NCBI GenBank assembly: GCA_006503475.1 | Contig: RSEH01000062.1 | Span: 116,007 to 180,006 of the forward strand | Source: Stentor roeselii | Lineage: Eukaryota > Ciliophora > Heterotrichea > Heterotrichida > Stentoridae | Direction of reading: 5' to 3' | Length of the DNA stretch: 64,000 nt | Shown: piece after piece, positions 8,841-58,250 of the stretch | Numbering within the stretch: the first letter of the stretch is position 1 | Layout: the number at the start of each line of letters is the position of its first letter | Notes under the pieces: generated by a model | Seen by the model: the letters and a program-made list of their open reading frames with translations, nothing else | Told to the model about the DNA's origin: nothing | The model's database searches: none | Made by a program: the position numbers and the translations under genes

Positions 8841-10706
8841 ATGAGTTTCCTTCAACAAACAAACGAAGAATACATAAAACAGCAGCTTCGGTCCCTGCTT
8901 TCAGACCCAAGCAACAAGAAAAAGCTTCAAAAAGACTTAAAGCCTTTAGGTCTTTACACGAAACGTCAAGGTTTTACAATCTACCGAGATTTTTTCAAGA
9001 CAGAGTTAGGCCCCCGTCAGAAGTCAGTCCACAAGCACCGAGTCTCATCTTTCAACTCATCAGAAAAAACAACCCGAGTGAAAAAAAAGGTAAAATCCGA
9101 ACTTCCATCATTATCCACCGTAAAAGCAAGTCGATTCAAAGGAATCTTAAACACTGAATTCTTTAAAAAAGGTCGAAAAGTTGTAAGTTCTGGAGTTTTG
9201 TACCTTCTCGTCAGTAAAATCAGCATAATCCCAGGACTCGAAATGATTAAAGCAAAATTTCCAGTCAAATACGAAAATGACTTATCACTTAAGTTCGTTC
9301 CTTATTATCTCAGCTTTTTCATCACGACTGTTTCGAACTTGTCAAAACTCGCTGTAGGACCTGTCATCCCTTTGACTTCAGAGATGAAAAAAATGATCAG
9401 TGCTGTTTATACTAACATTTGCAGTATCTCTGGAAATCGGAAGGTTTTCATGAGAAATAAAGACTTTCGTATTCAGAATTTCGTGAATTCTAAACCTTGG
9501 GCTTCAGTGATTTCTGAGAGTCTTCACAGGTTTTTTTTTAAGAAGTTCCCGATTTTAAATGAACATTCTTTTGAAGACTTTCTAGGAAATTACATTTTTT
9601 CTCATAATACAACAAATCAAAAACGACTTTGCTTTGAAGTCTTTGATAAAGCTGGACTCGGGTTCTTAACAACGAAGCATCTTTACAGTTTCTTCGAAAG
9701 TGGACTTTTTCAGTTCATTAAAAATGACTTGTTCGTGATGGTCAACTTTCTTTGTAACGACCGGTATTCAGAAGAGACTGAAAAACTTAGAAGACAGTCA
9801 ACAAGAATCATTGAAAGTGAAGTTTTTAAACTCATTTCAAGTGAACCTAAAAAACTTAATTTCAGAACTTTTTGTAAACTTCCTTTTGAACAAAAATTTC
9901 CGGATTTACTTTTAGCTCTCGCTTTTTTGTTCTTGGAAGAAACTGGCAGTGATTTTTTGACTCGGTACTTCTCGGTTCATAAGTTTCGAGTCCTTCCTGT
10001 CAAGAACGGCTTTCATGTTGTCAGACCTGTTAATATCTGCAGAGATTTTTTAAAAGAAGTTAAAGCTGTTTCAATTGTGAATAAGGAAAAACTTAAAGAA
10101 TATCTCCCGAAAAGTGATAATTTTACTAAAGAACTCATCAAAGCAACTGTCGCTACTTTTATTTTAGGATGTAATGCTGAGTATCTATGTGAGTTCAAAG
10201 AACTCACAGCGACTGCAACTTCTATGAAAGAAGGAGCGGAACTGATGTTTGGGAAGAAATGCGATATTGTCATAGAAAACTTGTATGAAAGAATGAGAAT
10301 TCCTAATACTTTGAATATTAACTTGTGGGATTTTCTGGAATATTTTGAAGGCTTTTTTGATGTGATTTTTAATTAGGATGAGTTGAAACATGCCAGATGT
10401 TTTCAGGTTTATGATGCGAATAATGATGGAGTCGTCTCTGTCATGGAAATGATGAAAATTATTGAAAGCGGGGACTTGAATTTAAGTTCTTCTCTTCAGG
10501 ATGAAATCAATAAACTTGCTGAACTCATGGAAAATAAAAGGTTTGTTACTCCCTATGGAGGAGGGTTTATCGATCTTGCTAATTATCGAGCTTTCTGTGT
10601 TTATCCCGCTTTTTCAATGTTTTTGAAGGAAAGGTTGAACTTCAATTTGAAAAATATGGATGCTTTGATTATGAAGAGGTATGAAGAACTTATGACTGAA
10701 CATTGA
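8841..10706 (+). CDS. EF-hand protein, two exons
   Basis: Two frames join across a 15-nt intron at 10362-10376 (GTGATTTTTAATTAG). Joining gives ...FFDDELKHARCFQVYDANN, which completes a canonical C-terminal EF-hand (DANNDGVVSVME). The frame is open from 8685, but the first 52 codons are AT-rich and look like leader, so I prefer the ATG at 8841 (MSFLQQTNEEYIKQQL). That start gives about 616 residues. The middle is alpha-helical and weakly EF-hand-like (FCKLPFEQKFPDLL region); only the last calcium loop is convincing. It is probably a calcium-responsive scaffold or regulator. If 8841 is right, 8444-8840 is a non-coding spacer. Confidence 0.75.
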
Positions 10707-10877
10707 AAGGACTCATTGATAAGAATATTTAATTGGAAATAGTTTAAGATTGAAGGTTTTTAAATAACAAGGGATTTGGATAAGATTTTTAGATTTTATT
10801 AATCATATAGTTGGAGGCTCAAAGTGCGAAGTTTTCAAAATATCTATAAAACTATCCAATAGGAAATTCTAATAATT

Positions 10878-11222
10878 CTATATGCTATCTAATAAAAGGT
10901 TTTTCGGAATTCTCCTATTGTTCAAGGTAATAGTTGAATCAAAATTGATCTTTCTACAAGTTAAAGCCTTGGGTGTGGTTCCAGGTATAATCTTATGATC
11001 AGCTCTGACAACTTTAGGTGTAAGCACATTATTGCTTCCAAGATTAAAATCGAGAGACTTATGAACTAAGATTCTTTTTTTCATTCGAAAAGTAAATGAG
11101 CTACTCTCATCTTTTTCAGCAATTTTAGGTGAAAGACACAATTTAAGTGGCGGTACAAGTTTCATATTCTTGATATCAGAGTTTTCATCAATTTCAAAGA
11201 GTCGATTGCAGTCTTTTTTCAT
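10878..11222 (-). CDS. Unknown small protein
   Basis: 114 residues, polar and basic with a few Ser/Pro stretches, no span or known motif. The ATG is preceded by CAATATAA, the start context used by many genes here. It is divergent from the B-box/GTPase gene, with only 31 bp between the two start codons. Function unknown. Confidence 0.6.
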   Translation of the reverse strand: MKKDCNRLFEIDENSDIKNMKLVPPLKLCLSPKIAEKDESSSFTFRMKKRILVHKSLDFNLGSNNVLTPKVVRADHKIIPGTTPKALTCRKINFDSTITLNNRRIPKNLLLDSI

Positions 11223-11253
11223 TTATATTGTTAAGAATTTTCCAAGTTAATAA
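11223..11253. promoter_or_regulatory. 31-bp shared divergent promoter
   Basis: The whole space between two opposed start codons is 31 bp. On the minus side the ATG is preceded by AATATAA, on the plus side by GTTAATAA. Both promoters and both 5' leaders must fit here or extend into the neighbouring coding sequence. Confidence 0.6.
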
Positions 11254-12423
11254 ATGACAGAAACGAGCTCGCGATACAAAAGCCAATCAGAAAAAAGCCT
11301 CGAGAGCCAATCTCACAAAGATCATTCAAAGTCCAAACCTTCAAAACAAGAAAAATTTTTGAAACCTATCAAACCAAGTGAAAATTCTTTAAAAAGCAAT
11401 CCACCTGACCCAACCGAAGAAAAAAGTCCTCCTCTAAAGGCACAACAAGAAAAATGTGAAGACTGTTCATTTCCAGCAACATACATCTGTGTGTGCGAAG
11501 AAGAAAAGCTTTGCGAAGAATGTCTTGTGTCTCATGTAAAAGACGACTCAAGTTTAAAGCATCGAATAGTTTCCTTATTCCATCCTCTGGTATCTTTATT
11601 TGAAACTTCTGAAGATGAAGGCGAAGAAGACGAGGTTGACAAGATTCAAGAACAAATCGAGGCATTGAAAGAGTTCAGAGATAAGTGTGTTGATCTTATC
11701 GACTCGAAAATCAAGTCCATTCATTGTGAAGGGGAAACTCCTGGACCTAGCAAGTTGTTTGCACCTGGAAATAATAAGTCTTTTACACCGATTCCTGTGA
11801 ATCTTCAATCTAGTTTTCGATCTGCTAGACCTGAAATTTCTGTCAGGGAGTCAAAATTCCCTGGGCGTAAGTCTTTTGACTCTAACTTTGTACCTGGGTC
11901 TATTTGTCGAATCAATTATTTTAGTTCTTTTGAATGCTTTTCGTATAAGGTTTTGATTACTGGAGGGGTTAAAGTTGGAAAAAGTTGTGTTATTGAAAGT
12001 TTTAAACAGATTCATGCGGATTTTAATGAATCTTCTGTTATGGTTTTTAATAGTATTTTGTGTGAAAATTTGAAAGTCAGTTTAGAGGTGTTTGAAGATC
12101 GGGCTGTTGAAGGATGTTCTTTATGTCTTGGCTCTCTCGTAGTATTTGACCTTACTAATAAAGATTCCTATGAATATGCAAAAGGACTAATAAAATTACT
12201 TGAATCAAATGCAACAGTTTTAAACGTCGTTATTTTAGTAGGCACTAAACTCGATTTAATAGTTTCAGGAGGAGTTCGAAGGTTCGCCTCATTCGCAGCA
12301 ATTCAAAACTTTGCAATGAGTCGAGGTGTTCTCTACGACGAGATCTCAGCAGTGAACTACAGTCACGTCCAAGAGCTATTCATGCGACTAGTTCGAGAAC
12401 TTTACAAGAAAAGCAATTCATGA
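11254..12423 (+). CDS. B-box-like zinc finger fused to a Ras/Rab-like GTPase domain
   Basis: 389 residues, one exon. Residues 1-65 are disordered and basic. Residues 67-105 hold Cys/His pairs (CEDC, CVC, LCEEC, SH) of B-box type. After an acidic linker and a helix, a small-GTPase domain starts near 230: P-loop GGVKVGKSC (about 237-245), VGTKLDL in place of NKxD (about 328), and EISA for the SAK motif (about 366). The WDTAG switch II motif is absent: the expected strand reads LEVFEDRAVEGCS. Nucleotide binding looks possible but hydrolysis doubtful. The zinc-finger plus GTPase plan recalls TRIM23, which carries an ARF domain instead. Confidence 0.75.
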   Translation: MTETSSRYKSQSEKSLESQSHKDHSKSKPSKQEKFLKPIKPSENSLKSNPPDPTEEKSPPLKAQQEKCEDCSFPATYICVCEEEKLCEECLVSHVKDDSSLKHRIVSLFHPLVSLFETSEDEGEEDEVDKIQEQIEALKEFRDKCVDLIDSKIKSIHCEGETPGPSKLFAPGNNKSFTPIPVNLQSSFRSARPEISVRESKFPGRKSFDSNFVPGSICRINYFSSFECFSYKVLITGGVKVGKSCVIESFKQIHADFNESSVMVFNSILCENLKVSLEVFEDRAVEGCSLCLGSLVVFDLTNKDSYEYAKGLIKLLESNATVLNVVILVGTKLDLIVSGGVRRFASFAAIQNFAMSRGVLYDEISAVNYSHVQELFMRLVRELYKKSNS

Positions 12424-12569
12424 TAATAACTTAATCTCGAAATAAAACTAAATCCTCTAAAAAATAAAAACCTTTCCATAAATCTTCAATCAAAACACTC
12501 CTTTTTACCTAAAACCAAATTTTCAATAATCCTCGAAATCATTTTCAATACCTTAACCCTCCTAACAAA

Positions 12570-14417
12570 ATGAACAATTATTCAAAACAAAAAATTTCCA
12601 TCCAAACAAGCATCAGGATGCAAGTAGTCCAAAAGCTGATAACATCCTCAACACCTTCAGAAACCTCTTCTCGTCAAATCCTCTCCAAGCTTCTCCAAAA
12701 CCAAAAATTCACTCCAGTCCTTCGCAGCAAAATAACATCTCCAAGAAAGATCTCCTCAAGACCAAAAGACTCCATCTCAAAAGACTCCATCTCAAAAGAC
12801 CCAATAAAAAAGCAAAACATTTCTCTCTTTCGCCTTCACTCCACAAATTCTCGAGAGTTTAACAAATCACGACTGCATCGTTTTTCGATTTCCTTCGAAA
12901 CGATGAGGAAATCAGGTCAAGAACAAACAGAACGAAAAGAGCAGCCAACGCGAATCAGGAAGTACAAAAAAAGGTTAAAACCTGAGGAAAAAATTTCAAA
13001 TAAATGCGATATTGACAAGCTTTGGCGTCGAGTTTTTTCTTTAAGTAACGGATTTGAATGCACCCCAGGGACTTCTTATAAGGTCTTTATTGGAAAAGGG
13101 AATAACTCTGCACTTATCAGAAGAATCATGGCTGGAAGAATCTGGTGGAAAATCGTGGAAAGTATGGAAAAGGCTCATTTTGTATGGACTCAATGGAAAG
13201 ATATTCAGTTTATTGAAAATTTGAAAAGATGTGAAGTGCAAGTTGATGTTAAAGAAGATCAAAGGCTTCCTACTTGGCCCAGTGTCGGGAAAAATTTTTT
13301 GCCTAAGTCGAAAATAACGGAACCTGAGTATTTTGGGTTGAATTTGATACAAAAAACGGGATCTTTTCGGGTTATGAACTGTTTGAAGCTTGAAAGTGAG
13401 GACTTGGTCTTGTATAATAAATTCGAGTTCAATCAATTTTTAACTGATAAAAAAGAACTGCTGAAAACTATGAAGGAATTTTATGGATTTTTTCAACAAG
13501 ATGTTTTTCAGAAACTTCCTCTTTCTTTTAATGTGAATGGGATTGATGACCCGGAATTTCTGATGTTTTTGAAGAAATTTGAAGAGTTTGAAAAAGTGAA
13601 AATGGAAAAAACTGGAGTTTTTAATGTGTGGATTGTAAAACCTGGGGAAAACTCAAATCGCGGCAACGGGATCCAGGTGGTGAATTCCCTGGAATCTTTA
13701 AAAACTTTATTAATATCAGAGGCAGGAAAAAGTTACATTTTACAGAAATACATAGAAAACCCATTACTAATCAACAAGAGAAAATTCGATATCAGATGTT
13801 ACGCAATGATCACCAGTATCAACAACATAATCCAAGGCTTTTTCTTCCAAGACGGTTACCTAAGGACTGCCTCTCACGAGTTTTCAATGGAAAACCTATC
13901 AAACAACTTCATCCACCTCACAAACGACGCGATTCAAAAGCACAGTCAAGACTACGGAAAATTTGAAAATTCGAACAAACTTTCCTATAAAGACCTTCAA
14001 CGATATCTCGACCTTCACTACTCCGAGTTGAATTTTTCAACACAAGTACTTCCAAAAATAAAGCAAATTATAAAAGAAACGATTTCTGCATCTTTTTTTA
14101 GAATTAATCAAAATAAAAGAACCTGTTGTTTTGAGATACTCGGATATGACTTCATGATTGATAAGGACTTCAGGCCTTGGCTGATCGAAGTTAACACGAA
14201 CCCCTGCCTTGAACTTGCTTCTTTAAACTTAAGGATTATTATTCCTTCTCTTGTTGAAAACGCTTTCAAACTTGTTGTCGACTCGCTTTTCCCTCCGCCA
14301 GGTACTCAACATGGAGACTCGATACAAGTGAACAAGTTTGAGTTGATTTTTCACTCAGAAGTTGATGGAAAGGCTCTTTCCGACTACGAAAAAAACTCAT
14401 TAAAAGAAGGTAATTAA
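12570..14417 (+). CDS. TTLL: Tubulin-tyrosine-ligase-like (TTLL) enzyme
   Basis: 615 residues. The TTL/ATP-grasp core is clear: WIVKPGENSNRGNGI near 353, YILQKYIENPLLINKRKFD near 385, SNNFIHLTNDAIQK near 450, and LGYDFMIDKDFRPWLIEVNT near 530, which supplies the late acidic and Asn magnesium ligands. TTLL enzymes add Glu, Gly or Tyr to tubulin tails, here most likely in cilia and cortical microtubule ribbons. The first 130 residues are basic and disordered and include a short SKDSI repeat. Which amino acid is added cannot be told from sequence alone. Its last coding bases are duplicated at 16697-16775. Confidence 0.9.
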   Translation: MNNYSKQKISIQTSIRMQVVQKLITSSTPSETSSRQILSKLLQNQKFTPVLRSKITSPRKISSRPKDSISKDSISKDPIKKQNISLFRLHSTNSREFNKSRLHRFSISFETMRKSGQEQTERKEQPTRIRKYKKRLKPEEKISNKCDIDKLWRRVFSLSNGFECTPGTSYKVFIGKGNNSALIRRIMAGRIWWKIVESMEKAHFVWTQWKDIQFIENLKRCEVQVDVKEDQRLPTWPSVGKNFLPKSKITEPEYFGLNLIQKTGSFRVMNCLKLESEDLVLYNKFEFNQFLTDKKELLKTMKEFYGFFQQDVFQKLPLSFNVNGIDDPEFLMFLKKFEEFEKVKMEKTGVFNVWIVKPGENSNRGNGIQVVNSLESLKTLLISEAGKSYILQKYIENPLLINKRKFDIRCYAMITSINNIIQGFFFQDGYLRTASHEFSMENLSNNFIHLTNDAIQKHSQDYGKFENSNKLSYKDLQRYLDLHYSELNFSTQVLPKIKQIIKETISASFFRINQNKRTCCFEILGYDFMIDKDFRPWLIEVNTNPCLELASLNLRIIIPSLVENAFKLVVDSLFPPPGTQHGDSIQVNKFELIFHSEVDGKALSDYEKNSLKEGN

Positions 14418-14426
14418 TGAAATTAT

Positions 14427-15060
14427 ATGGAAGCTTTAGTCTTCGACATCAAAACAATTCTTAGAATTACGAAAGACCTTCGAAATAACTTACAGGTTGA
14501 GTGTCTTCAACGACTCACCCAAGATGTTCAGTCTTCGTCTGAATCACGACTGAGCAAAACTCAAGTCAAATGCATCGAAAATGCTGCAAAGTGATTAGTC
14601 TTGAAGAGTACTCAACAGATGACTTTATTTTTTGCTTTGGGGATAAGGCGATAAGTTTTATATCATTTTAAGTCGCAGCGTTTCAGTTAAAGTGCCTTCA
14701 AAGCGACGAGTGGTCGTCACGAAGTTCGCTGTTAACCGAATCGAGAAGTTTTTGCAAGTATCTGAAGAAGACCTTCTCAAACTTCCCAAAAAAAAAGCAA
14801 CGTCTGTAGGGAAGGTGGGGGAAGGGTACTTTCCACACTTAACAGATCAGAGCTCTTTTTATTCTAGTTTGTGCGGGGGTTAGCCTAATATTCGCCTATA
14901 CCTGCCCTCACAAGTACAGTCTTTACTGAGTGATGGTCTATCTGGTTGTTATATTCGGAGAACTTGCAATCTTCCAGAACCTGTACTGTCTTCTTCACTA
15001 CAAATTATCATTCAATTTGGCGGATTTGAGCACTATCGAAATATGAGAGTTTTCACTACT
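14427..15060 (+). pseudogene. Decayed copy of the cyclic-nucleotide-binding gene at 16793
   Basis: The ATG at 14427 and the next roughly 400 bp match the start of the live gene at 16793 base for base over long runs, for example the segment around CGACGAGTGGTCGTCACGAA. Several one-base deletions (near 14531 and in the GGGGATAAGGCG stretch), a lost internal Met codon and an 18-base deletion break the frame. Further on only islands remain: FGELA near 14955 and FGGFE near 15021, the expected cassette of a cyclic-nucleotide fold. The whole gene was probably duplicated and this copy has decayed, its 3' part fastest. Confidence 0.85.
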
Positions 15061-15705
15061 TAGTCTTAGATTTTCATTAGGTTTATTATTTTCTCTATTT
15101 TCAGAGTTGAGGGTGAATGGATTTACTACCAACACTGAAGTAACTATTGGAATGCGACTGTAGGGCTTTCGAAAAGCTCGATGAAAAATCAAACAGGATG
15201 CAGAAAATCTCAAACTTTTCCAGCATTTCTCGATAATCTCAATAAAATTAAAGAAAAAGGATTTGCTTGAATCGCTAATATTTAACGAGATGGACTTTAT
15301 ACTTAAATAAAACTTGAAATTCAGGTCAAAGATATTCAAGGTTTTTGAAAAAACTTAAAAAGGATGAAAGACTGGCTAAATCAATTTTTTACGAAGAACA
15401 GAATTTGTACTAGAATAATAAAATTTAGTTGAAAAATGTGATAAAATTAGAGTATATGATTGACAAATTTTAACAAAAGCGAATTTTTATTCTTTGAATA
15501 GCAAAATAAGGTTTTAAACCTTTATATGAAATTAGTTTGGTAAATAAAATAGATCAGAACCCTCGACGAGATGAATCATTTTTTATCAAATTTTCTAAAA
15601 TTTATAGAAATTTACACAATTTTATACCTTTCATACTTAAACTACTTATAAAATTCAAATTAATCTAAAGCCTATGCTAATTTTAAATATGTCTATAATT
15701 ATATC
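15061..15705. other. Non-coding stretch, probably more gene debris
   Basis: About 645 bp between the decayed copy and the coiled-coil gene. The first 280 bp are less AT-rich and give broken peptide fragments in several frames, which fits decayed coding DNA; the remainder is plain AT-rich spacer. An open frame on the minus strand at 14998-15339 crosses the decayed gene and is not supported. Confidence 0.5.
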
Positions 15706-20967: not shown

Positions 20968-21600
20968 TTAGCAGCATTTCCCTTTTTTGCTCTCTTTCTT
21001 ATCGCTGGTTAGAACTGAAGTGTTTTTGTTTGCGATGTAGTCGGATGATGACTTTATTGTTGTTAGGATTTTTTCTGTCATGAACTCGAAGGCGGATGAA
21101 ACTCCGTTGTCGTCTTTTGCTGAGGTCTCGAAATAAGGGAGGTTGAATGACTTGGCTAAATTCTCTCCTTCTTCTCTAGAAACAACACGATGATTAACCA
21201 TATCAATTTTATTTGCAATGATCACATTGAAAGAATTCGGTGAAGCCTTTTTGCTGATTTCTTCAATCCAGGTGGAAACAGTCTCAAATGAAGGCCTGTT
21301 AGTGACATCATAAACAATAGCGATTCCATTGGCTCCTTTATAGTAAGAGTTGGTGATATTTCGAAAGCGCTCTTGACCAGCAGTGTCCCAAATCTGAACT
21401 CGCACGTTTTTTCCAGAGACTTCCATGTCCTTGACTTTGAAGTCCACCCCGATGGTACTCATGAATTTGTGGGAAAAGACGTTTTCCTAGATGTAAAGTA
21501 CAGTGTAACGAACTATTAACGCAGTTTTTCCAACACTTGAATTACCGATTGTTAAGATTTTCAAGGTGAAGTCACTGTGTAAGAATTACAATTTGGACAT
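20968..21600 (-). CDS. RAB: Rab-family small GTPase, three exons
   Basis: Two 15-nt introns, 21575-21589 (GTAATTCTTACACAG) and 21487-21501 (GTACTTTACATCTAG), join three exons into a 201-residue Rab. The first exon is only 11 nt. The restored N-terminus carries the P-loop GNSSVGKT (14-21). Downstream are the switch I Thr (MSTIGVDF), WDTAGQERF, ANKIDM in place of the usual GNKxD, and ETSAKDD. The tail GKCC is a double-cysteine geranylgeranylation site. It is closest in feel to the Rab1/8/35 secretory group, though subfamily is not proven. It acts in vesicle traffic at membranes. Confidence 0.93.
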
Positions 21601-24304: not shown

Positions 24305-25579
24305 ATGGGAAATCTTGTTCTTTACCCTCGGAGCAACTCTTGCATCTCTTCAGTAGTTCCTAATCTAATAATGCTTACAAAATGTAAAATAAACTCAGGG
24401 CTTCGAGAAGACATTTTAAAGGTATTCAAAAACTACATCTACTACATCGGCAAGAATTTTTTCATATCAAGGTCAGAACTACGTCGAATATCAAAGCACT
24501 CAAGTTTAGGAGGTATCGAAGAAGTGGTCTTTACTTATTTTCTAAGATCACCACACAAAAAAGTGAACATAATGGAAATTCTAGCAGGATTAATTGTTTA
24601 TTCCTTTCAAGAGTTTGAAGCAAAAATAAGCATCGCGATTCAAATTTTTGACTTTGACGGGTCTAAAAACCTGACAGAAGACGAGTTTTTTATAATGATG
24701 AAGTGTTTCATCAGTGCGATTTCAATCATGACTGGAGGAATCCCAGCAGAAAAAGAAGTTATCAAGTCCTTCGTATCATCTCTTTACACAACTCGAAACG
24801 AGTTAAAAAGCAACGAGTAAGTTTTAAACAGAATCATTGTCTGGGTGCGTCAAAACCCAGTCCTTTACGAAATGTTTCAGATAAACCAACCAGAAATGAT
24901 AAAACCTGTGAAAATCATTAAAAAAAAACTGGCAAGTCTTGATTTCCGTACTTTTGACAACCGAGGTACAGTCGCAGTCCATCGACGAATAAAGAGCTCG
25001 TATTCAGTCAAAAGAGAAAATAACTACTCAGTCGTGATTGACTCGAAAATAGTCACAAAACACGACGTTTTAACTCTTAAAAACAAATTTGATGAAAAAT
25101 GCAAGAATGGATGGTGTTCTTTAAAGGAAGCTGTCGTTGTTGTCAAGGGTCTTGGGTATTTAATCGACTCCAGTATTGATTGTGAGTCGACTGTTTTAGT
25201 TTCTTTTAACAATCTGCTTGAAATTTTGTTTAAAAACGCGAATAAAAATCAAATTAACAGGCTTTTAAGGTTCTCTGGAATGAAAATCATTGAGGAAAGG
25301 ATAAAAGAACCTGAAAAAAACCTGACTGTCAGAAATATTATTGACCCCAGGCAGGTTCTTATGTTTAAAAATATTTTTGAACGGTATGATTTGAATAAAG
25401 ATGGAAAAGTCGACTTGAAAGAACTTAAAAACCTGCTGAAGAATTCTTTGAATGAAGAAAGTATTGAAGAGATGTATGAAAAATACCGACGTGGCTCGAA
25501 AGGGCTGAATTTAGAAGAATTTATTAAAATGCATGCACCAGATGATGTTGAAGTACCGGAAAATCTTAATATCAGCTAA
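24305..25579 (+). CDS. Myristoylation-type EF-hand protein, two exons
   Basis: Two frames join across a 15-nt intron at 24817-24831 (GTAAGTTTTAAACAG), splitting a Glu codon; the product is about 419 residues. It begins MGNLVLYPRS, a plausible N-myristoylation signal. One EF-hand lies near residue 116 (IFDFDGSKNLTEDEF) and a better one near 365 (YDLNKDGKVDLKELKNLL). The part between (about 170-340) is helical with no clear family. It is probably a calcium-responsive membrane-attached regulator. No enzyme motif was found. Confidence 0.8.
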
Positions 25580-35568: not shown

Positions 35569-36135
35569 CTACATAAAAAATACCGAAGATTCAATTAAAC
35601 TTTTGCTTAATTGGTTAGTTTTTTCTAAGTTATTTTTTTCCTTCTTTAATTCAATTTCATATCTAAGAGCTTTTGCTTTTTCCAGTTTTCCAGCTAATTT
35701 TTGACTATAAGTTATTTTTAAATTCCTAGCAACTTTAGCTCTTTCCTCAATTTTCTTCATTTTTTCACTGAGCTCTTCGAAGTATTTTTCGATTTTTTCA
35801 TCAGAAGATGATCGAAAATGTGACTTTGTCTTTACTTGGCTTAAAAAAGAAAGTTCTTTATTTTGCGGTCTGGTCAATTCCCTTGAACTTTTACTTGATT
35901 CTTCCAGTTTTCTTGGAGTGAAGTGATTGTTAAATAGTTTTTTGTATCTCATGTGTTTTCTATCGAATCGAGAAGTGGATTCAGGTGAATTTTTTAGTTC
36001 TTTTGGTCTGATCGCAATACTTGATGACTGTCTTTCTAAAGGCTCTTCTTTGTTTGATATGGCTTCTGGAGACTTGCTATTGAATAGACGGGATGTGGAT
36101 TGACCAGCTAAGCCGGTTGCAGATGTTTTTCTCAT
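35569..36135 (-). CDS. Unknown basic coiled-coil protein
   Basis: 188 residues. The first 90 are disordered and basic (many Ser, Arg, Lys); residues about 105-180 are a charged coiled coil (KYFEELSEKMKKIEERAKV). No recognised domain. It lies in tandem with three further minus-strand genes. Confidence 0.6.
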   Translation of the reverse strand: MRKTSATGLAGQSTSRLFNSKSPEAISNKEEPLERQSSSIAIRPKELKNSPESTSRFDRKHMRYKKLFNNHFTPRKLEESSKSSRELTRPQNKELSFLSQVKTKSHFRSSSDEKIEKYFEELSEKMKKIEERAKVARNLKITYSQKLAGKLEKAKALRYEIELKKEKNNLEKTNQLSKSLIESSVFFM

Positions 36136-47487: not shown

Positions 47488-47928
47488 ATGATTTGGTCTT
47501 TCATAAAGAGTGTCTTTTTCATTGAAAAGCAGATATTCAAGATATACCTTCACGAGATGCGAGCAACTAGTTCAGGTAATCAATAGTCAGAGTACCAAAA
47601 CATAAAAAGACCCAATGTCGACTGGGGCTTCAAAGGCAAAGCTGAAGAAAAAGACGCGAAAAAGTCAGAAGGTTTCATGCCGATCGATGAAGCGATCAAC
47701 ATTCTTCAAGTACCTGCGACATTCACAGCAGAAGAAGTCGAGCAAAGATTTGAGAAGCTGTTCAACTTGAACGACCCAGCCAAGGGTGGTTCTTTTTTCA
47801 TTCAATGCAAGGTACGTGGAGCGAAGATCACTTTAATCAAACATCTCGAACCTGAGCCCTCAGCGCCTGAAACCACAGAAGGCGAAAGTGACCCAAAGCC
47901 GAATGAAAACAAAGAGACAAATAACTAG
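47488..47928 (+). CDS. PAM16: Pam16 (Tim16) of the mitochondrial import motor, two exons
   Basis: A 15-nt intron at 47576-47590 (GTAATCAATAGTCAG) joins an upstream exon to the main frame, giving 141 residues with an ATG at 47488 in the context TTATAAATA. The J-like core is clear: PIDEAINILQVPATFTAEEV, then FEKLFNLNDPAKGGSFFIQC and KVRGAK. It lacks the HPD of true J proteins, as Pam16 does. Pam16 holds Pam18 at the TIM23 channel. Without the intron, the protein would begin at an internal Met. Confidence 0.85.
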
Positions 47929-47944: not shown

Positions 47945-49981
47945 CTATCTCTCTAAAAATGCTAAAAGTAGCTGACGGATGTCGTTTTCAGTTGTTTCTT
48001 CTGGATTCAACTTGTTTTCACCCACTTGGAAAACGTTGCATGTCGAAATCACCCCGACTTCTCCTTCTTGCACAAAAGCTGCAAAAAATTCATGCAAATG
48101 GCAAAAAAAAAAATCGCCGACTACCACGTCGGCCACTTGAGAAACTTTTTGAATGAAGGACTGACTTAGCTTTTCGCTGATGAAGACGAGACACTTGGAA
48201 AGCTTCGGCTTTGAGGAATTATCGGTTTCGAGCATTTCGTAGGAAATTGTGCTGTTTATACCTGATTCCATTGATGGAATGTTACTTTTTGAATGGATTA
48301 GTTTGCGTAATTTGTTTAGAGATAGGTTTGTACGCTTTGGAAGCATGCTTAAAGGCCAGGAGATTATTACTGAGTCTTCTGGGTAGTTTAGGAAACAGAG
48401 GTTTTTTGATCGTTCTAGGTTGCCTTTGGAGAATGAGAGGGAGTAGGTGATTTTGAAGACTTTTAATTCTTTGTTGCCTTTTGTTTCTTCGATGTGTCCG
48501 TTTAAAATTTTAATGAGATGCGAGCACATGCAAATGATTTTTTTCATTTTTCCCTTTTCCGTTGAAACTTTGTTACTTTTAAGCCATTTTTTGTTAAACA
48601 TAGAATTCATAGTTTTTTCATTCAATTTCGAGCTGAAGAACTTGAACTTATACTGAATCATAAGCAAAGACTAAATAAAACTTACAGACCTAGTAACAGT
48701 AATAAGAAGATGAGCCCCTTTATCCAAATAAAAACTGATAAACTCAATCATAAGCTTCAACAACAAGTTATGTTTATACTTATCAGACCTGACACTGGGT
48801 ATATCCTTATCAATCAACAAGTTGATTTTCATATCCTTTCCTGAAAGTTTATTCCAAATCATCTGAATAGTGTTAACAACTTCAGTCTTCACATCAAAGT
48901 CACAAAACTTCAAATCAGAACTTCCAAGTAAAATATTAATCAAAGTTTTCGTTTCCAGCTGTGAAAACAAATAATCTCTTACACAGTTCAAGTCACTTTC
49001 ATCCAGCGGCTTCTGCAACAAGTAAAGATTTAAGAACTTTTTCTCAATATTTTGAAAAGGATCTTGATTTTCTTTCGAGCATTCAAACAAAATTTTCCTT
49101 TCAGCAACATGAGAACTGATATCACGAAAGATCAGCAAGAACAAGTTCTTGCTGTGAATAGACAAAGGAAGAATTCTAATTAAAATAGAGCTGAATTTTT
49201 CACATTTTTCTTCTGATTTCCTTAAAAACAGTACTTCTTGTTCACTTTCAATTCCTTTTTTCGCCTTTTTGATAAGACTGAAGCAATTATCACAGATTTC
49301 TTCAGAAAACAACTGGTTTATATGAGAAGTTCCAGCCTGGGCTAAAATCGTTTCAAGTTGACGAGCGGTGAAGTTTTTCTCGATAATCGTCCCGAACTGG
49401 TCTAACACGAAGTAACCTGCATTGATGTCTTTCGAGGAATCTTGCAGGTCTTCAGTCATATCTCGATAAATCGACTTCATTGCCCAAAAATATTTAAAGT
49501 CTTTTTTGACCAGAATGAAAAAAATCAAACAAAGGACTGCCTCGGGCAGGCCTGAATAAAAAGATTGGTGAAAGATTCTTCGAAAGAAAAGGGAAATCAT
49601 GTAGATTGTGAGACTTTGGGATATGAAATAATGATAAATCAACTCGAATAATAGTAAAAGTACCTCGGATTGAGAGGAATTCAGAGGGGATGACATAATG
49701 ATTACAAGGATCAGGTAAGGCGAGTACTTTGAGAGCCTTGGATTGCTACGCATTAAGAGATATGCTGGAATTGTTAGAAAATGATAGAAAGAATTGCTTT
49801 GTCTTGTTAAGGACCATATTTGCATCAGGAAAAATAAAGAGTTTATAAGGAAGGGCTTTGGGGTTTGTGTGTTATCGAACTCGGCTTTGTATTTTATCTC
49901 GTTTTGGCTTGAGGAGAATTTGAGGAACAGGTTCAGGTTGTAACCACTGAAGAACTCTTTTCTCTTGTCATTGAAATTCAT
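47945..49981 (-). CDS. Membrane PAS / degenerate histidine-kinase-like protein, two exons
   Basis: A 15-nt intron at 48671-48685 (GTAAGTTTTATTTAG) joins two frames into 673 residues. Residues about 45-170 hold several hydrophobic spans. A PAS-like domain follows (INAGYFVLDQFGTIIEKNF; LLIFRDISSHVAERK). The next part resembles a dimer helix and an N-box-like segment (LIDKDIPSVRSDKYKHNLLL; LMIEFISFYLDKGAH), but the usual catalytic Asn and phospho-His are not evident. The end (SKCLVFISEKLSQSFIQKVS) is not identified. It may be a dead or divergent sensor kinase. Confidence 0.65.
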
Positions 49982-50790: not shown

Positions 50791-50802
50791 TTAATCATTA
50801 TA

Positions 50803-51993: not shown

Positions 51994-52008
51994 TTAAGGT
52001 TGTTAAAT

Positions 52009-55000
52009 TTAAGGTCGTCCTCGTCTTCCACCTCGCACGCCTCGACCCCCTCGACCCCCTCGGCCCCCTCGGCCTCCTCGGCCTGCTCTTCCTGCTTTCC
52101 CTCCTCTGCCCACTGGTCTTGCTGGAGCGCTCTTGCTTCGGCCTTCCCAATGCCGCGGGTCTTTCACATTACTTCTTGGCTTCGAGTATGCCACGAAGAC
52201 ACCTTCCGCTCTCAGATAAAGATGCTCGAAATAATCAAACTTATGAGGAAAGGCTTCTTGCCATGCTTCTTTCGGAGCTTGTTCTTTATTTAAACTCCAG
52301 ATACGATGGACTGTTTTCTTTTTTGGCTTCCAAAGAACGAAACCGGATCCAGTTTTAGTTTCGTCGAAGATCAGCTGAATGTTTTGGTAATGACCGAGAG
52401 TAAGCATTTTCACTTTTTCTATCACGCCTGGCACGTTTTTGTTGACTAGGCTTTTGTAAAATAAATGAAAAACGTTCTGTCCTTGTTTCGTGCCGAATAA
52501 GCAACCAGCAGCTTCTTCTAAGTCTTGAGTTATTCCGAAGACTACAGCTTTTTTTCCACCTTCACTTGAGGACATCTCTGTGATGATTTTAGAACGAAAG
52601 GCAACTAGTTCTTTATTCGCTGAGACGACTGCAGCTTTTCTGATGAAGGACTCTGAGTCTTCGAAAGAGTAGCTGGTTGTGAATAGTTTTTCTTCGATTG
52701 AGTCTTTTCGGTCTTTTTTCTGTCCGAAGGACTGGAACAAGAAGCTGAGTTTTTGTTCAGGCTCGATAAGACCCAGGTCTTCCAGGGTCTTGACGGGGAA
52801 GCCAAGAGCTTTGAAAAGTTGAGTAAAGCGCGCGAGGCTTCCGTCAGATAATAGTGACTGGTTCACTTTGTCCCAAGCTTCTCTGGCCTCGTCAGTGACT
52901 TGCTCGAGTTTCTGGTTGAACTCGAATTTCAAGTCTTCATTTTCTTCTTTTTTAACTTCTTCATTTTCTTTTTTTACTTCTTCATTTTCTTTTTTTACTT
53001 CTTCATTTTCTTTTTTTACTTCTTCAGTGCGAGTCTCATCTTGAGTCTTGGTTTCCTCAGTAGTCGGTTTGGACTTAAGCATTCTTTTGAAGTTCTGAGA
53101 ATAGCTGGACTCACCCTTCATCAAGTTCACACGAATCGATTCAAAATAAGGGTTCAGGTCAATTTTCAGTAGTTTTATGACAAATTCAGAGAACTTGCAG
53201 GCGGGGTAGTCGAGGTTTCTTCTGACTTCTTCTTCTAGGAAAATAGGAAGAAGGGACTTGATGTCAGTCACGTCTCCTGAAAGGACTGCTGCTGCGACCC
53301 AAGCTAAAAAGACTGAATTTTCCTTGACAGCTGCTCGAGCAGCAGGGTCACTTGGGTACACCTGAAGAGTTTCTAAGAGTTTCGGAAGAATTTTTTCTTT
53401 ATTTTCTCTGTAGACCTGGAGACAAGTGTCTCTAAGAAGTTCTTCCAGAAGTTCATTCTGCTGTTCAAGGGCTTTGACCCAGACCATGAAAGGAAAAACA
53501 GTGACTTGGTCCTCATTAGACCCGAGGACGTCAACAACAATATCATATCCAAGCATTTGACGGAACCTGAGACTTGAGAACTGCCAATGGTCAGAGACGA
53601 TGAACAAAGGAAGCAAGCCATTCACCCTCTCATCGTTCAGTCCCGGGATCAATTCACAAGCTTTCGGCGGCTGAGTGCCATGAGCGTAGTTCCTTTCACC
53701 AGTGATGATCTGTCCAGCTTTCGTTTCAAACAACTTCGAGTTAATGAAACTATCATGAGAAACCAGCAAGTTATTCACATGTCTTATCTTCAACTCATAA
53801 GCATTTCCTAAAAGGTTCTGAGGACGCTCCAGGTCTAAAGTCACACAAAGACAGTCACCTCGGGTAAGAAGCTCAGTCCACGTCTGCCCTGTAAGTGCAC
53901 ATTTAAAATTCCTGACTTTCAACAAATCCGCATGTTTTTCTTCTAAGTCCTTCAAATTCACACCTCGCGCAAGAACTTCAATCGCATCATCCGACTCGAA
54001 CAAGATACGAAAGTTGTCTCCAGCTTCCTTCGCGATTTTTTTCTCTAAGTTACGTTTCAAGAACAACTTATTAGCGAGTCCGTTTAAATTAGCGAATGAA
54101 ACATTGTCTAGTCCTTTCTCAACAGCAACTTTAAAAGACTTGATGACTTCTTGTGTGGCGAGGAAAAAAGGTTGCAGTTGTTTTCGCTTATAAGGTCTTA
54201 AACTCGAGCAGTCCTGTTCCAGGCCATTGAGTCGTCTTTCTGCTTCACTGACGATTGATTCGAGTTCTTTCAGTTTTTCATGAGCCCCGTCGATGCCCTT
54301 TTCCAGAGCGCCTCCGATTTTAGAGGCGATGAAGGCGGTGACGAGGTGGACAATGTCCTCAATTGAGCGGAAGTCGCCTCGGGTGGGGTCGACTTCGCAG
54401 CTCATCACGGAGCTGCCTTTGTGGACCTCGACTTTGCAGTCTTCTAAGTCGTTTTCAGAGATGTAGACAAGCGCGTGGTTTGAACCTCGGTCGGATTCGA
54501 TTAGGACTTTGTAGGAAGACTCGCCGCCGATGAAACGAGCCCAGGTTGAACCTTCGAATGCTAAAGTGAAAATGTTGTTTACGGCCACTGGGATTCGACC
54601 TCCTTCTGGAACGTATTGGAAAGTACCTGGACGAGTACCACTCTGGGATAAGGTTGTTAAAAGGTTCGCGTCGTGACCTGAGGAAAAACCGATGCAGTGG
54701 ATCGCGATTGATACTCCTGTTGTCTCGAATAGCACTTTTTGTTGCTCCATTAAAGGAGTTAGAGTTGCAATTCCATTATTATCCTGCCCATCAGTGAGCC
54801 AGACACAAAAGACATTCTTTAAATCCTTCTGTTTGATCCTCTCTTCCATAGCTTTAATAACATTTGCAAAAACAGTTCCTCCTCCAGCATGAAGAGCTCT
54901 GAGCTTTTCAATGATCTGGTCATAGCCTTCTGCCTCTGAGTGATATTCCCTCATTTTCGAGTCAAAAGGATAAATAGAGACAGGAATATCTGCATTTCTA

Positions 55001-55203
55001 AACTTTGTAGTCAAACTTTCAGCTGCTCCTTTCGCATCATTCATCGGGCCTCCTGACATGGAGCCACTTTTGTCAACAGCGAACATGGCGTAAAGACTGT
55101 CGGACTCCACTTCAGTGCCTTCGGTGAAGGTTGGAAGTTCGAATCTAAGGGCGATCATTTCTCCAACAATGTGGATGATTTCTGCTCCGATCTTGGCCGA
55201 CAT
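52009..55203 (-). CDS. Von Willebrand factor A protein with RGG tail
   Basis: 1064 residues. A vWA domain opens the protein (residues about 10-215) with the MIDAS metal site DKSGSMSGG, the Thr of AGGGT and WLTDGQD. A helical middle is not recognised. A Lys/Glu repeat ENEEVKK sits near 740-770, matching 21-bp DNA repeats at about 52937-53025. The end is an Arg/Gly run of RGGRGG type (about 1030-1064), an RNA-binding or methyl-Arg tail. Function unknown; vWA proteins of this kind often form protein scaffolds. Stop is 15 bp from the convergent U2AF gene. Confidence 0.85.
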   Translation of the reverse strand: MSAKIGAEIIHIVGEMIALRFELPTFTEGTEVESDSLYAMFAVDKSGSMSGGPMNDAKGAAESLTTKFRNADIPVSIYPFDSKMREYHSEAEGYDQIIEKLRALHAGGGTVFANVIKAMEERIKQKDLKNVFCVWLTDGQDNNGIATLTPLMEQQKVLFETTGVSIAIHCIGFSSGHDANLLTTLSQSGTRPGTFQYVPEGGRIPVAVNNIFTLAFEGSTWARFIGGESSYKVLIESDRGSNHALVYISENDLEDCKVEVHKGSSVMSCEVDPTRGDFRSIEDIVHLVTAFIASKIGGALEKGIDGAHEKLKELESIVSEAERRLNGLEQDCSSLRPYKRKQLQPFFLATQEVIKSFKVAVEKGLDNVSFANLNGLANKLFLKRNLEKKIAKEAGDNFRILFESDDAIEVLARGVNLKDLEEKHADLLKVRNFKCALTGQTWTELLTRGDCLCVTLDLERPQNLLGNAYELKIRHVNNLLVSHDSFINSKLFETKAGQIITGERNYAHGTQPPKACELIPGLNDERVNGLLPLFIVSDHWQFSSLRFRQMLGYDIVVDVLGSNEDQVTVFPFMVWVKALEQQNELLEELLRDTCLQVYRENKEKILPKLLETLQVYPSDPAARAAVKENSVFLAWVAAAVLSGDVTDIKSLLPIFLEEEVRRNLDYPACKFSEFVIKLLKIDLNPYFESIRVNLMKGESSYSQNFKRMLKSKPTTEETKTQDETRTEEVKKENEEVKKENEEVKKENEEVKKEENEDLKFEFNQKLEQVTDEAREAWDKVNQSLLSDGSLARFTQLFKALGFPVKTLEDLGLIEPEQKLSFLFQSFGQKKDRKDSIEEKLFTTSYSFEDSESFIRKAAVVSANKELVAFRSKIITEMSSSEGGKKAVVFGITQDLEEAAGCLFGTKQGQNVFHLFYKSLVNKNVPGVIEKVKMLTLGHYQNIQLIFDETKTGSGFVLWKPKKKTVHRIWSLNKEQAPKEAWQEAFPHKFDYFEHLYLRAEGVFVAYSKPRSNVKDPRHWEGRSKSAPARPVGRGGKAGRAGRGGRGGRGGRGGRGVRGGRRGRP
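52937..53025. repeat. 21-bp tandem repeat in the vWA gene
   Basis: About four copies of TTCATTTTCTTTTTTTACTT plus one base, coding ENEEVKK on the minus strand. Copies are almost identical, so this looks recent and unstable. Confidence 0.8.
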
Positions 55204-55260
55204 ATTTATAAGAACTAATCAGATTCACAAGTGAAAATGGAGGATTATAAGGGAAAATTA

Positions 55261-55650
55261 CTAGTATCTTGATAGTCGGGCAAAGTTAATCTCTTCTTGT
55301 CTGAAAATTTTCGATCTATGCGTCGAATTAAAAGACTTGTTGATTCGACTTGAAATTCTTGTGGTAGGCTTCGACCGAGCCTTTGGAGTGCTTGTTTTGA
55401 GCACGTTAGAAAGTTTTGACCGCAGGACTTGAGTAAAAACTGAACTTTGAATAGGCCAAAAGTTCTGATTTTTCTTGATTTTCATCGCTCGTTTTGTACT
55501 TTCTTGACTTTTATATCTGAACTTATTGTATTTTTTTTCGAGTTCCTGTGCGTAGAAGTTTGTTTTTATGATTTCTTTTTGACGTGAAAGTGTTTTCCGG
55601 TAGATCTCCATGGGAGAGAGGGGAAATTTTTCGGGATTCAGTTTGTTCAT
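55261..55650 (-). CDS. Unknown small basic protein
   Basis: 129 residues, very rich in Lys, Arg and Ser. The ordered-looking start (MNKLNPEKFPLSPMEIYRKT) is followed by a basic helix. It may bind nucleic acid or microtubules (inference from charge only). It lies in tandem 57 bp upstream of the vWA gene on the same strand. Confidence 0.6.
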   Translation of the reverse strand: MNKLNPEKFPLSPMEIYRKTLSRQKEIIKTNFYAQELEKKYNKFRYKSQESTKRAMKIKKNQNFWPIQSSVFTQVLRSKLSNVLKTSTPKARSKPTTRISSRINKSFNSTHRSKIFRQEEINFARLSRY

Positions 55651-55741
55651 TTTTATCGAAGTTTAAATGAATTGTTATTCGAAAATTGTTATTTTTGATT
55701 AGGTTTTTTTTACTTTCCTACCGATTGAAATTCAATTAACT

Positions 55742-56773
55742 CTAATTTATCTGATAAATATCTAATTGTCCCACAAGTCGATCTTCTAAAAACATCTTTT
55801 CAGCGAGCTCGACCTGATCCTTGTGCACATGCGCAAGGAGTTCCGTCCACATCTTCCGAAACATATCCAGATCATCATCAACCTTTCCACAAAGTCTAGG
55901 CATTCCAAGACAAACATTTCCAAACTCATCCATAAACAAATTTTCCAAATCAAGATTTCCATAAGCAAGTCCTTTTTTATGAAGAAACTTAAGAACCTTA
56001 GCAACTTTCCCAACAACCTTAACAGCTTCATTAGGCTTAATCCCATTTTCAACGAATTCTGCCATTTTCTGCCCCTCAACTTTTTCAAGCTGTACAAAAA
56101 GTTGAAGATTTCCACAGCCCTCCTCGACCCAGCAAGTGACATACCTCGTTAATCCTCTGCACTTGAGACTTCTGAACTTGTTGACTTGAGCCAAGACAGC
56201 ATTTTCAAGTTTTTCATGGAAAAAGTCGAAGTCTTGAACAAGGACCAAATATTTTTGACTGTCAAGCTTGTGCTCGGCAAGGATCAGTTTTTCACCTGGT
56301 TCTTCAGAAATCGTTGAAATCTCAGAAAAATATCGAGAAAAGTTTCCATTGTCGATTAAGTGGTCAAGGACTGAGAGCATTGGAAGAGTTGATAGAGAAA
56401 TGCAGTCTGAGGAACTCGCGCAGGTCATTGGGGAAGAAAAGGGAGAATTAATGTTTTGTTTGGAACTTAGAGAACTGGATAAAACCGCGAGTGATGTATC
56501 CGGCTTGGAGACTTTTTGATACCTGAACTTTAGGAGGCCGAAATAAAAGGAAAATAGGACTAGAAGCAGGAAGATGAAGATGTTGGGGTGAGACTGGATT
56601 GATGAGTACACCGTCAGAAATAGTGATTGGATACTCAAAACCTGCCTCAAATCTTCATCAAATGAATGCATCGAGTCTGTCGGCCTCTCATTGAACTGGT
56701 TCAAGTGACTCATACCCTGGATATGTGAGGACTGCCAGATTGGGTGAAAGGTTGAAAATAGTCGCGAAACCAT
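55742..56773 (-). CDS. Single-pass membrane pseudokinase, PERK-like in plan
   Basis: 343 residues. A lumenal-like N-terminus is followed by one membrane span (residues 64-81, IFIFLLLVLFSFYFGLL). The kinase-like fold starts near 145 (NFSRYFSEISTISEEPGEKL). The N-lobe keeps the HKLD strand but reads YLVLVQ where an ATP lysine is expected. The catalytic loop HRDxxxxN reads YGNLDLEN, and DFG reads LGM. It is therefore very unlikely to transfer phosphate. PEK-family members such as PERK share the one-span plan; the link is inference. Start context CGAATATAA. Confidence 0.7.
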   Translation of the reverse strand: MVSRLFSTFHPIWQSSHIQGMSHLNQFNERPTDSMHSFDEDLRQVLSIQSLFLTVYSSIQSHPNIFIFLLLVLFSFYFGLLKFRYQKVSKPDTSLAVLSSSLSSKQNINSPFSSPMTCASSSDCISLSTLPMLSVLDHLIDNGNFSRYFSEISTISEEPGEKLILAEHKLDSQKYLVLVQDFDFFHEKLENAVLAQVNKFRSLKCRGLTRYVTCWVEEGCGNLQLFVQLEKVEGQKMAEFVENGIKPNEAVKVVGKVAKVLKFLHKKGLAYGNLDLENLFMDEFGNVCLGMPRLCGKVDDDLDMFRKMWTELLAHVHKDQVELAEKMFLEDRLVGQLDIYQIN

Positions 56774-57263
56774 TTATATTCGTTAAGCCTTTCGAAGAGA
56801 GTTACCGAAGCCATTAAATGAGAAAGTGGACAAAACTAGATCTTAAAAAGATTGATTTGCTTTCCAGGGTTTGGAGGGTTTTCAAAATGATAAGAGATAC
56901 GAAAAAGATTTATATTTGAAAAATGGTGAATAACTTTGAGGAGTTAAGGTATTTTTTAGAAGTTTTTGATTAGTATTGATGAAATTTGCTTAGAATTAAT
57001 TTATGAGATGATTTGATCAAAATTGAAAATTTTACTGATTTTAGTAATAAGTTTTATTTGGGAAATGATGAATTTTGGAATCTTTGTTTTAGTTTTAATC
57101 TACATGAACTTCGAAGATTTTTACTGGTTTTTAAATGAAAAAGCGATAATAAAATTCTTTAAATAATCTTTGTCATTATTCAAATATCAATCTTCCAAAT
57201 CATTTGCTACTAAGCACTTAATAATCAACCAGCTATCTAACCTGCTAAGTTCCTTATAAAATA
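56774..57263. other. AT-rich divergent intergenic spacer
   Basis: 490 bp between the pseudokinase and CDS-like genes. AT-rich; no frame, repeat or RNA seen. The right end carries CCTTATAAA before the next ATG. Confidence 0.5.
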
Positions 57264-58250
57264 ATGGTAATCTCGATAAAACTTATCCTTCTCTGGTTAT
57301 TTGGGATTTTTATCATTGAATACCACTTAATCTGCATCGCCCTTTCGAATCTGGTCCTAGGTCTGTTATACCACGAGTATCAAGGAATCTTCAAGCAGAT
57401 CTGTTCAGCCCAAACCGGCCACAAAGAAGCAACTTACATAGAAAGACTGAGCAGTTCAATCTTTCCCTACATCCTTAACCAAATAATGATACTTTCAAGT
57501 TCTTTCTCCTCAGACTCTCCAGAGCAAGTCCTAGGTATTTGTTTTATTTTATCATCCTCAGTGCTGATTTCGCTAAGAATCAACCAGTACTCTTCACTCT
57601 GCTCAGAAATCACAGAATACAAACGAAAAAAGAAGAAAATTGTTAAAACTAGAGATGAAGACCTGTAAGATGTACCTAGAATATCATTAGGAATCTATAA
57701 ATGGGTCAGAGTCTCTTCACTTTGCTTTACTTATATCATGGGAGACATCTTTTTCTTAGCTTTCATCACATTGCCTCAATGTTTCTCGGTCCTACTGTTG
57801 AATAAAACGTAACAATCAGTTAGTGATGGCAAAAAATTGATTTTTTTATCGATTTTGCAAACTTTGACTGCGAAATATTTCTTGAATTTCAGATTTGGAA
57901 GCAGCAAGTTTTTGTTTCATGTGACGCCTGGAAGAAGGTTTGAAGGAATTATTTTTACTTATGTTTTTAATGTTGTTGCCTCTGTTGGGCTGAGTATTTT
58001 TGGAGGACTCTGGCTTATTCCGATGTTGAAGGTCATTGATTTTGTAGTGATCTCGTTGATTGTAAGAGAGGTTTAGATCACTACTGCTGGGATTTTTGGG
58101 TCTACTGCTGTGAGCTTTTTGAAGAGGGTTGCTATGGTTAAGAGCTCTGGGCCTACTTTGTTGGGAATCGGAGTTTTAGATGAGCTGGATCATATCTTGT
58201 ACACGGCTATTGGGATTTACTATTATTGTTATTTCTTTAGGGAAAGATGA
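57264..58250 (+). CDS. CDP-diacylglycerol-synthase-like membrane protein, four exons
   Basis: Three 15-nt introns, 57665-57679 (GTAAGATGTACCTAG), 57809-57823 (GTAACAATCAGTTAG) and 58062-58076 (GTAAGAGAGGTTTAG), join four exons into 313 residues with five to seven spans. The CTP-transferase block FGSSKFLFHVTPGRRFEGII and the late signature SFLKRVAMVKSSGPTLLGIG, then VLDELD, match the phosphatidate cytidylyltransferase family. Yet key residues differ: KD reads KS, the GHGG loop reads GIG, and DR reads DE. It could be a divergent or inactive homologue. The family makes CDP-diacylglycerol for phosphatidylinositol and cardiolipin. Confidence 0.72.

Follow-up and report, generated by a model that had tools for sequence, protein, structure and literature searches.

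Introns of 15 nucleotides in Stentor roeselii, and a probable class of them without a stop codon

Introns at the locus

The genes on a 64 kb stretch of a Stentor roeselii contig (the window) are interrupted by segments of 15 nucleotides (nt), which are very probably U2-type spliceosomal introns of this heterotrich ciliate, locked at that one length. We describe these introns here, together with their relatives in the assembly (44,391,514 bases in 522 contigs; genome-wide counts refer to these 44.4 Mb) and the share of them that may carry no stop codon. The window has a G+C content of about 36% and is densely packed with open frames (88 stop-to-stop frames of at least 100 codons per 64 kb). All three stop codons are used, with TAA, TAG and TGA ending 82, 54 and 22 of 158 open reading frames (ORFs), respectively. 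Past a TGA the frame continues for a median of 4 further codons and a maximum of 104, and since this run-on is short TGA is a stop. The code is therefore the standard one with UGA as a stop, which is in keeping with Stentor and argues against a code of the Blepharisma type.

There are 12 introns of 15 nt in the window, all of the form GT(N11)AG. Ten were found from frame joins and two, both in a Rab gene, by eye. The initial annotation of this DNA had the length and the ends right and counted 11; our guess is that the one it missed is one of the two Rab introns. The introns are as follows, with A10 denoting an adenosine at intron position 10.

10362..10376, plus strand: intron GTGATTTTTAATTAG, phase 0, A10, in the EF-hand protein gene 8685-10706; removal takes out an in-frame TAG and joins 559 and 109 open codons
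20882..20896, minus strand: intron GTATTACCTAAGAAG, phase 1, A10, in the NEK-like kinase gene 20951-19953; removal takes out an in-frame stop
21487..21501, minus strand: intron GTACTTTACATCTAG, A10, in the Rab gene 21600-20968; removal raises the Ras family score
21575..21589, minus strand: intron GTAATTCTTACACAG, phase 2, A10, in the Rab gene 21600-20968 behind a first exon of 11 nt; found by eye
24817..24831, plus strand: intron GTAAGTTTTAAACAG, phase 2, A10, in the EF-hand gene 24305-25579; removal joins 171 and 248 open codons
35569..35583, minus strand: intron GTATTTTTTATGTAG, phase 0, A10, in the gene 36135-35218; removal joins 187 and 116 open codons
46436..46450, minus strand: intron GTATAGTTTAGACAG, phase 0, A10, in the gene 47335-45950; removal joins 295 and 161 open codons
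47576..47590, plus strand: intron GTAATCAATAGTCAG, phase 1, A10, in the Pam16 gene 47488-47928; removal takes out an in-frame stop and joins 29 codons from the ATG to 111
48671..48685, minus strand: intron GTAAGTTTTATTTAG, phase 0, A10, in the PAS-like sensor gene 49981-47945; removal joins 432 and 241 open codons
57665..57679, plus strand: intron GTAAGATGTACCTAG, phase 2, A10, in the CTP_transf_1 (CDS-like) gene 57264-58250; frame join
57809..57823, plus strand: intron GTAACAATCAGTTAG, phase 2, A10, in the CTP_transf_1 gene 57264-58250; frame join
58062..58076, plus strand: intron GTAAGAGAGGTTTAG, phase 0, G at position 10 (A at 8 and 6), in the CTP_transf_1 gene 57264-58250; domain match

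A10 is present in all but the last of these (11/12), the exception being the one already named in the initial annotation. Among all GTN11AG 15-mers of the window 116/408 have it, so that 11/12 would arise by chance with a probability of about 9e-6, a value to be read with the fact that the 12 were partly selected by consensus. Counting by frames alone, with 30 codons on each side, gives 17 rows in the window, 10 of them with A10. We kept 9 and dropped 8 (11246, 34641, 35923, 36641, 38836, 45170, 51984 and 59156; 2/8 with A10) for a poor consensus, the lack of an upstream ATG, short frames, or a position antisense to or beyond a gene. A further listing of frame joins in the window has 19 rows, of which 10 were kept and 9 dropped. 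One dropped 15-mer, 35923-35937 on the plus strand, matches the intron consensus well (score 13.2); it runs antisense to the gene 36135-35218 and is taken as a chance occurrence.

The introns had originally been placed partly because their removal seemed to restore known protein motifs. For two genes the domain evidence is firm, but not all of the reasons given at that time are borne out. With both introns out, the Ras family match of the Rab gene grows from 163.4 bits (profile positions 22-161) to 195.8 bits (1-161), and removal of GTAATTCTTACACAG yields MSKF^DFTLKILTIGNSSVGKT, which includes the P-loop. The kinase gene, for which NEK is the earlier name and which Pfam reads as a protein kinase, goes from a Pkinase match of 210.5 bits starting at profile position 18 to one of 225.7 bits starting at position 1. 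In the CTP_transf_1 gene, the family is matched over residues 5-310 at 42.1 bits once all three introns are out; with GTAAGAGAGGTTTAG kept, translation stops at its TAG and no family is matched, a comparison in which the unspliced form also lacks the C-terminus, being cut at the intron's stop.

The other motifs are less helpful. The EF-hand of the gene 24305-25579 lies downstream of and away from the intron and gives it no direct support. The SAPS match of the gene 47335-45950 is weak (20.0 bits, below the 25.6 cut-off), and so is the PAS_9 match of the sensor gene (17.0 bits, also below its cut-off). The sensor gene intron is of use in another way, as GTAAGTTTTATTTAG recurs at 10 further places in the genome (3 for the reversed control). 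Eight of these 11 copies lie in phase 0 between open frames of at least 39 codons on each side (L001, L002, L003, L007, L008, L027, L028 and the window). Of the other three, L004 is ambiguous, L006 falls in phase 2, and L005 is flanked by 500 and 27 codons in phase 0 (12 and 188 when read in phase 1). Although the 11 copies can be read in all phases, none is convincing in phase 1.

A single intron length

We also examined the length without assuming it. Over 300,843 bases, we counted the GT-AG segments of 8-45 nt that have to be removed for two frames of 60 codons or more to become joined. At 15 nt there are 34 GT-AG joins, against 4-7 for eight control dinucleotide pairs; at 14 nt there are none and at 16 nt there are 2. 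No length between 8 and 45 other than 15 rises above the controls, the 20-33 nt range of Paramecium-type introns included. About a third of the scanned sequence is intron-selected, as the stretches L017, L018, L020 and L022-L028 (96,843 bases) were picked since each holds one intron 15-mer. We thus repeated the scan on the remaining 204,000 unselected bases and found 16 GT-AG joins at 15 nt, compared with 2-7 in nine controls. A10 is found in 31/34 joins of the full scan and in 13/16 from unselected bases. Over the 34 joins A+T makes up 388/510 letters (76%), and position 13 holds T in 26 and C in 4 (T in 9 and C in 4 of the unselected 16).

The strand bias of the joins bears on one alternative, i.e. 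that the 15-mers are internal eliminated sequences (IESs), excised from the macronuclear DNA and retained in this assembly, rather than RNA introns. Ciliates do remove short IESs, and assemblies may contain unexcised copies. The elements are strand-asymmetric: in the unselected bases CT-AC joins number 6, within the control range of 2-7, against 16 for GT-AG, which places GT-AG on the coding strand. Furthermore, the 15-mers are spread over many contigs among the first 100 places listed for the TAG- and CAG-ending consensus forms. We consider retained IESs to have an almost negligible probability.

Genome-wide counts of the consensus do not depend on stops in frames. The TAG-ending form GTAANNTTTAWWTAG occurs 267 times at 15 nt (reversed control 68), 15 times with one more N, i.e. 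at 16 nt (control 51), and 26 times with three more N, at 18 nt and in the same frame relation (control 49). For the CAG-ending form the counts are 210 at 15 nt (control 31), 11 at 16 nt (12) and 16 at 18 nt (21). Allowing only bases other than A at position 10 of GTAANNTTTAWWTAG leaves 87 places (reversed control 207), versus 267 with A. Because these counts peak at 15 nt with A10, both length and A10 are near-fixed. A 16-nt minority with A at position 11 is not apparent in the genome, the two 16-nt consensus forms totalling 26 places versus 42 at 18 nt and 477 at 15 nt. Were the share that of Stentor coeruleus (442 to 8005), a total of 26 or less would have a probability of 0.09 with an assumed background of 10, falling to 2e-8 with one of 42; a 16-nt share like that of S. 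coeruleus can be excluded here only for backgrounds that are not very low. By eye, the 14- and 16-nt candidates with 30 codons on each side mostly lack the intron consensus, and two show a partial likeness (L019 1376 at 14 nt and L024 2882 at 16 nt).

The machinery for such splicing can be found in the same genome. U2, U6 and U1 small nuclear RNAs (snRNAs) each have one match above the Rfam cut-off (142.6, 97.1 and 84.9 bits), with the canonical recognition motifs GUAGUA in U2, ACAGAGA in U6 and ACUUACCU in U1. The UPF1 zinc-binding domain has eight genome matches, the best at 1e-57, and as it is matched a core factor of messenger decay is probably present. These matches lie on contigs C52, C515, C90, C49, C505 and C1, one scoring 198.9 bits and seven 52-83 bits, with C505 carrying two and C90 two that lie near each other. 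From these matches the UPF1-like family looks expanded.

Stop codon readthrough is a second alternative. Here the 15-mers would be translated and their UAA or UAG read as an amino acid, through an altered or context-dependent code. As 15 nt is in frame, this too would yield a continuous protein, and many ciliates reassign stop codons. It explains neither the GT-AG ends, nor A10, nor the single length, and the Rab and kinase scores go up when the 15-mers are removed. Stop-free 15-mers, described below, occupy the same sites in paralogues. Moreover, each of the three stop codons closes ORFs in the numbers given above, and no run past TGA exceeds 104 codons. We therefore think readthrough extremely improbable.

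The case for spliceosomal introns draws on the fixed length, the GT-AG ends, A10, the U1, U2 and U6 genes, the restored Rab and kinase domains and the positions common to paralogues. Several points weigh against it. Some 5/34 joins are expected by chance, and 18/34 lie within the stretches chosen for holding one intron sequence. The reversed control of the TAG form (68) is well above its 18-nt count (26), thus the background of this form is uncertain. The EF-hand support at 10362 is mixed, as removal lifts EF-hand_6 from 22.3 to 29.4 bits and lowers EF-hand_5 from 23.4 to 19.8 and EF-hand_1 from 21.1 to 18.3 (Pfam). Pam16, for which a restored motif had also been claimed, gains nothing, with 51.6 bits without the first exon and 51.3 with it. 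The intron 58062-58076 lacks A10, which is therefore not absolute. Finally, the introns are known here from DNA, and it is from this that we infer their splicing at the RNA level.

Probable introns without a stop codon

The initial annotation had warned that introns without a stop would be invisible to frame reading. Patterns that do not depend on stops, together with paralogues, bear this out. The consensus ends supply a stop in two phases, the 3′ TAG in phase 0 and the TAA of GTAA in phase 2. A phase-0 intron ending in CAG or AAG, or a phase-1 intron with no stop at positions 9-11, can be stop-free and would then look like five extra codons.

Genome-wide, CAG ends are nearly as frequent as TAG ends (210 vs 267). 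Read in their frames, the first 20 CAG sites divide into 9 stop-free ones, all of phase 0, stop-bearing ones of phase 1 (4) and phase 2 (5), and 2 ambiguous ones that were left unplaced (L057 and L064). For 20 of the first 21 TAG sites the result is 11 in phase 0 with a stop, 1 in phase 1 with a stop, 2 in phase 1 without and 2 in phase 2 with a stop, while L045, L048, L051 and L053 have no clear frame; the 21st, in L013, is in phase 1 with a stop. Weighted by the genome counts, 9/18 placed CAG and 2/17 placed TAG sites give a stop-free share of 29-30%. Assigning every expected chance match to the stop-free class lowers the share to 20% when the 18-nt counts serve as background and to 19% when the reversed control does. 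We estimate, then, that 19-30% of consensus introns are stop-free, a figure from small samples that is valid for GTAA introns of this consensus.

Further evidence comes from paralogues. A large gene of repeats of about 195 codons in L018 (G000:C50:107001-117000), at 2859-7577 on the minus strand, has an in-register 15-nt phase-0 intron at nine repeat boundaries, 7 with a stop and 2 without. The nine intron sequences differ from each other, and there are relatives at L026 4846, 5434 and 6754. A comparison of spliced flanks covered 102 introns and candidates, and pairs scoring 45 or more were considered. Among pairs of a stop-bearing and a stop-free intron scoring at least 55, 21/25 align at offset 0; of the four off-register pairs two are within the same gene and two are doubtful. 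Besides L018, stop-free 15-mers share position and phase with the stop-bearing introns of paralogues at six places:

L011 codon 1032, stop-free: pairs with L011:1702
L011 codon 141, stop-free: pairs with L059
L022 and L023 codon 151, stop-free: pair with L023:9348
L022 codon 918 and L023 codon 917, stop-free: pair with L028:4916
L058 and L074, stop-free: pair with L022:3270, L023:3295 and L028:4649
L070, stop-free: pairs with L050

The pair of C50a:13091 with L028 codon 131 (score 64, offset 0) is counted in the 21/25 and not among the six places, and is of low complexity by eye. When the five residues are kept, the score falls in all six pairs examined. As any five-residue insertion costs a gap, this penalty shows only that there are extra residues at these sites. 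The pair L022/L023 is uninformative on intron-like divergence.

The stop-free, CAG-ending 15-mers could instead be ordinary coding sequence of the form V-x-F-x-Q, with the stop-bearing ones alone being introns. They do leave the frame open, and single candidates without a paralogue are indistinguishable from coding sequence. At 18 nt, however, the frame-matched equivalent (V-x-x-F-x-Q in phase 0) occurs 16 times against 210. The positions and phases also equal those of the stop-bearing introns of paralogues, thus the five residues would have to be an insertion at exactly the intron point. A Rab gene in L017 speaks the same way. Its Ras match scores 105.9 bits with the stop-free GTAAAACCCATTCAG in place and 113.4 bits without it (+7.5), and a five-residue deletion there comes within 1 point of the best among 154 places; the Roc and Arf scores rise as well, and MMR_HSR1 and Gtr1_RagA fall by about 1.5. 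We judge the coding explanation to be very unlikely.

A number of results nevertheless count against a hidden class of introns. Support from paralogues covers 7/21 ORF-internal candidates, and 13 or 14/21 have no convincing paralogue. The CAG flanks span 100 nt each way, and some of their codon scores are low (L066 1.7, L075 3.1). In a codon shuffle with a matrix from stop-bearing introns, a score of 11 or more was reached by 6 versus 3.6 (standard deviation 2.0), which is no clear excess; with position 13 relaxed by hand there were 11 versus 1-8 at other lengths. As the training set of the shuffle is stop-selected, we relied on stop-independent patterns and paralogues. Without a paralogue single stop-free candidates are unsafe, because the antisense 15-mer 35923-35937 scores like real introns. 

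Selection for a stop in phase 0 would be expected to favour that phase among TAG ends, and the ratios of phase 0 to other phases (TAG 11:5, CAG 9:9; L013 left out) go in this direction, though not significantly (Fisher p 0.32).

L011, L022, L023, L028, L046, L050, L058, L070 and L074 encode large proteins with introns recurring at common positions. By eye, these proteins are probably membrane-spanning. A domain search of L022 and L011 gave weak Laminin_G_3 and Furin-like_2 matches, below cut-off.

Mechanism and comparison with other ciliates

If A10 attacks the 5′ splice site, the lariat would have a loop of 10 nt and a tail of 5 nt. Since the spacing does not vary, the spliceosome may gauge the 5′ splice site, A10 and the AG together, as a single unit, and this spacing would in turn set the length. 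For models of spliceosome geometry, such short introns are a demanding case.

Introns of this kind have been published for Stentor, and the likeness noted in the initial annotation agrees with those reports. In S. coeruleus 92.8% of introns are 15 nt long, 90.9% (8005/8806) have A10 and 7.2% (633/8806) are 16 nt, with an intron A+U of 75.6%; there too, A10 as the branch point with a 10-nt loop and a 5-nt tail is inferred (PMC9505925). Both species share the 15-nt length, the GT-AG ends, A10, an A+U of about 76%, the standard code and the snRNA motifs (ACUUACCU in U1, GUAGUA in U2, ACAGAGA in U6). They differ in that S. coeruleus has its 16-nt introns, whereas we see no 16-nt consensus excess. 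In size, too, the genomes differ, with 44.4 Mb assembled here and about 83 Mb in S. coeruleus. What this work adds is evidence from sequence for hidden stop-free introns, and a 15-nt rule without a visible 16-nt minority. S. coeruleus can now usefully be set beside a second standard-code genome, one in which the 15-nt rule seems stricter.

Other relatives are alike in part. Blepharisma stoltei is a heterotrich with tiny introns, mainly of 15 and 16 bp, and a compact AT-rich genome of 41 Mbp, in which UGA encodes tryptophan (PMC9942806); here, by contrast, TGA closes 22/158 ORFs with a short run-on. Heterotrich introns are given as about 95% 15 bp and the rest 16 bp, and Loxodes magnus, from the sister group, likewise has very short introns, with a different mode of 17 bp, a negligible number below 16 bp and a depletion of lengths divisible by three, or 3n (PMC11441545).

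Because 15 is a multiple of three, retention of these introns never shifts the frame. In Paramecium in-frame stops are enriched in 3n ultra-short introns, which has been read as support for nonsense-mediated decay (PMC5014332, PMC7858049). There, 3n introns are a minority of 18.7%, of which 59.2% cause a premature stop (as quoted in PMC7858049), while in Halteria 12.8% of 3n introns contain one (PMC7858049). In S. roeselii 3n is the only length found, and an estimated 70-81% of consensus introns carry a stop. Given the Paramecium and Halteria figures, stop-free introns have precedents, and the peculiarity here is that no length other than 3n was found. In the literature searched, which did not extend to the 2017 Stentor genome paper, we found no discussion of stop-free introns in heterotrichs.

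One may speculate further that splicing allows only a 3n length, that at least a fifth of the introns are stop-free, that their retention escapes nonsense-mediated decay, and that they act as reversible five-residue cassettes in membrane and surface families. Taken as a whole we find this rather unlikely. If it were true, the cell could not flag a retained intron by a frame shift, retention of a stop-free intron would give an intact protein with five more residues, and stop-bearing and stop-free versions would alternate at one position. 

With regard to surveillance, introns that all have one 3n length, a sizeable share of them stop-free, show how selection acts where length cannot vary. For annotators the issue is practical, as gene calling by open frames will overlook the stop-free introns and leave five spurious residues in the protein at each of them.

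Other features of the window

Rfam and tRNA scans of the window gave no matches. A complete match to the RNA-dependent RNA polymerase family PF05183, which serves RNA silencing, lies at 4813-7605 on the minus strand (554.7 bits). At 58949-63379 on the plus strand there is a WD40-rich frame of 1477 codons with 17 repeat stretches.

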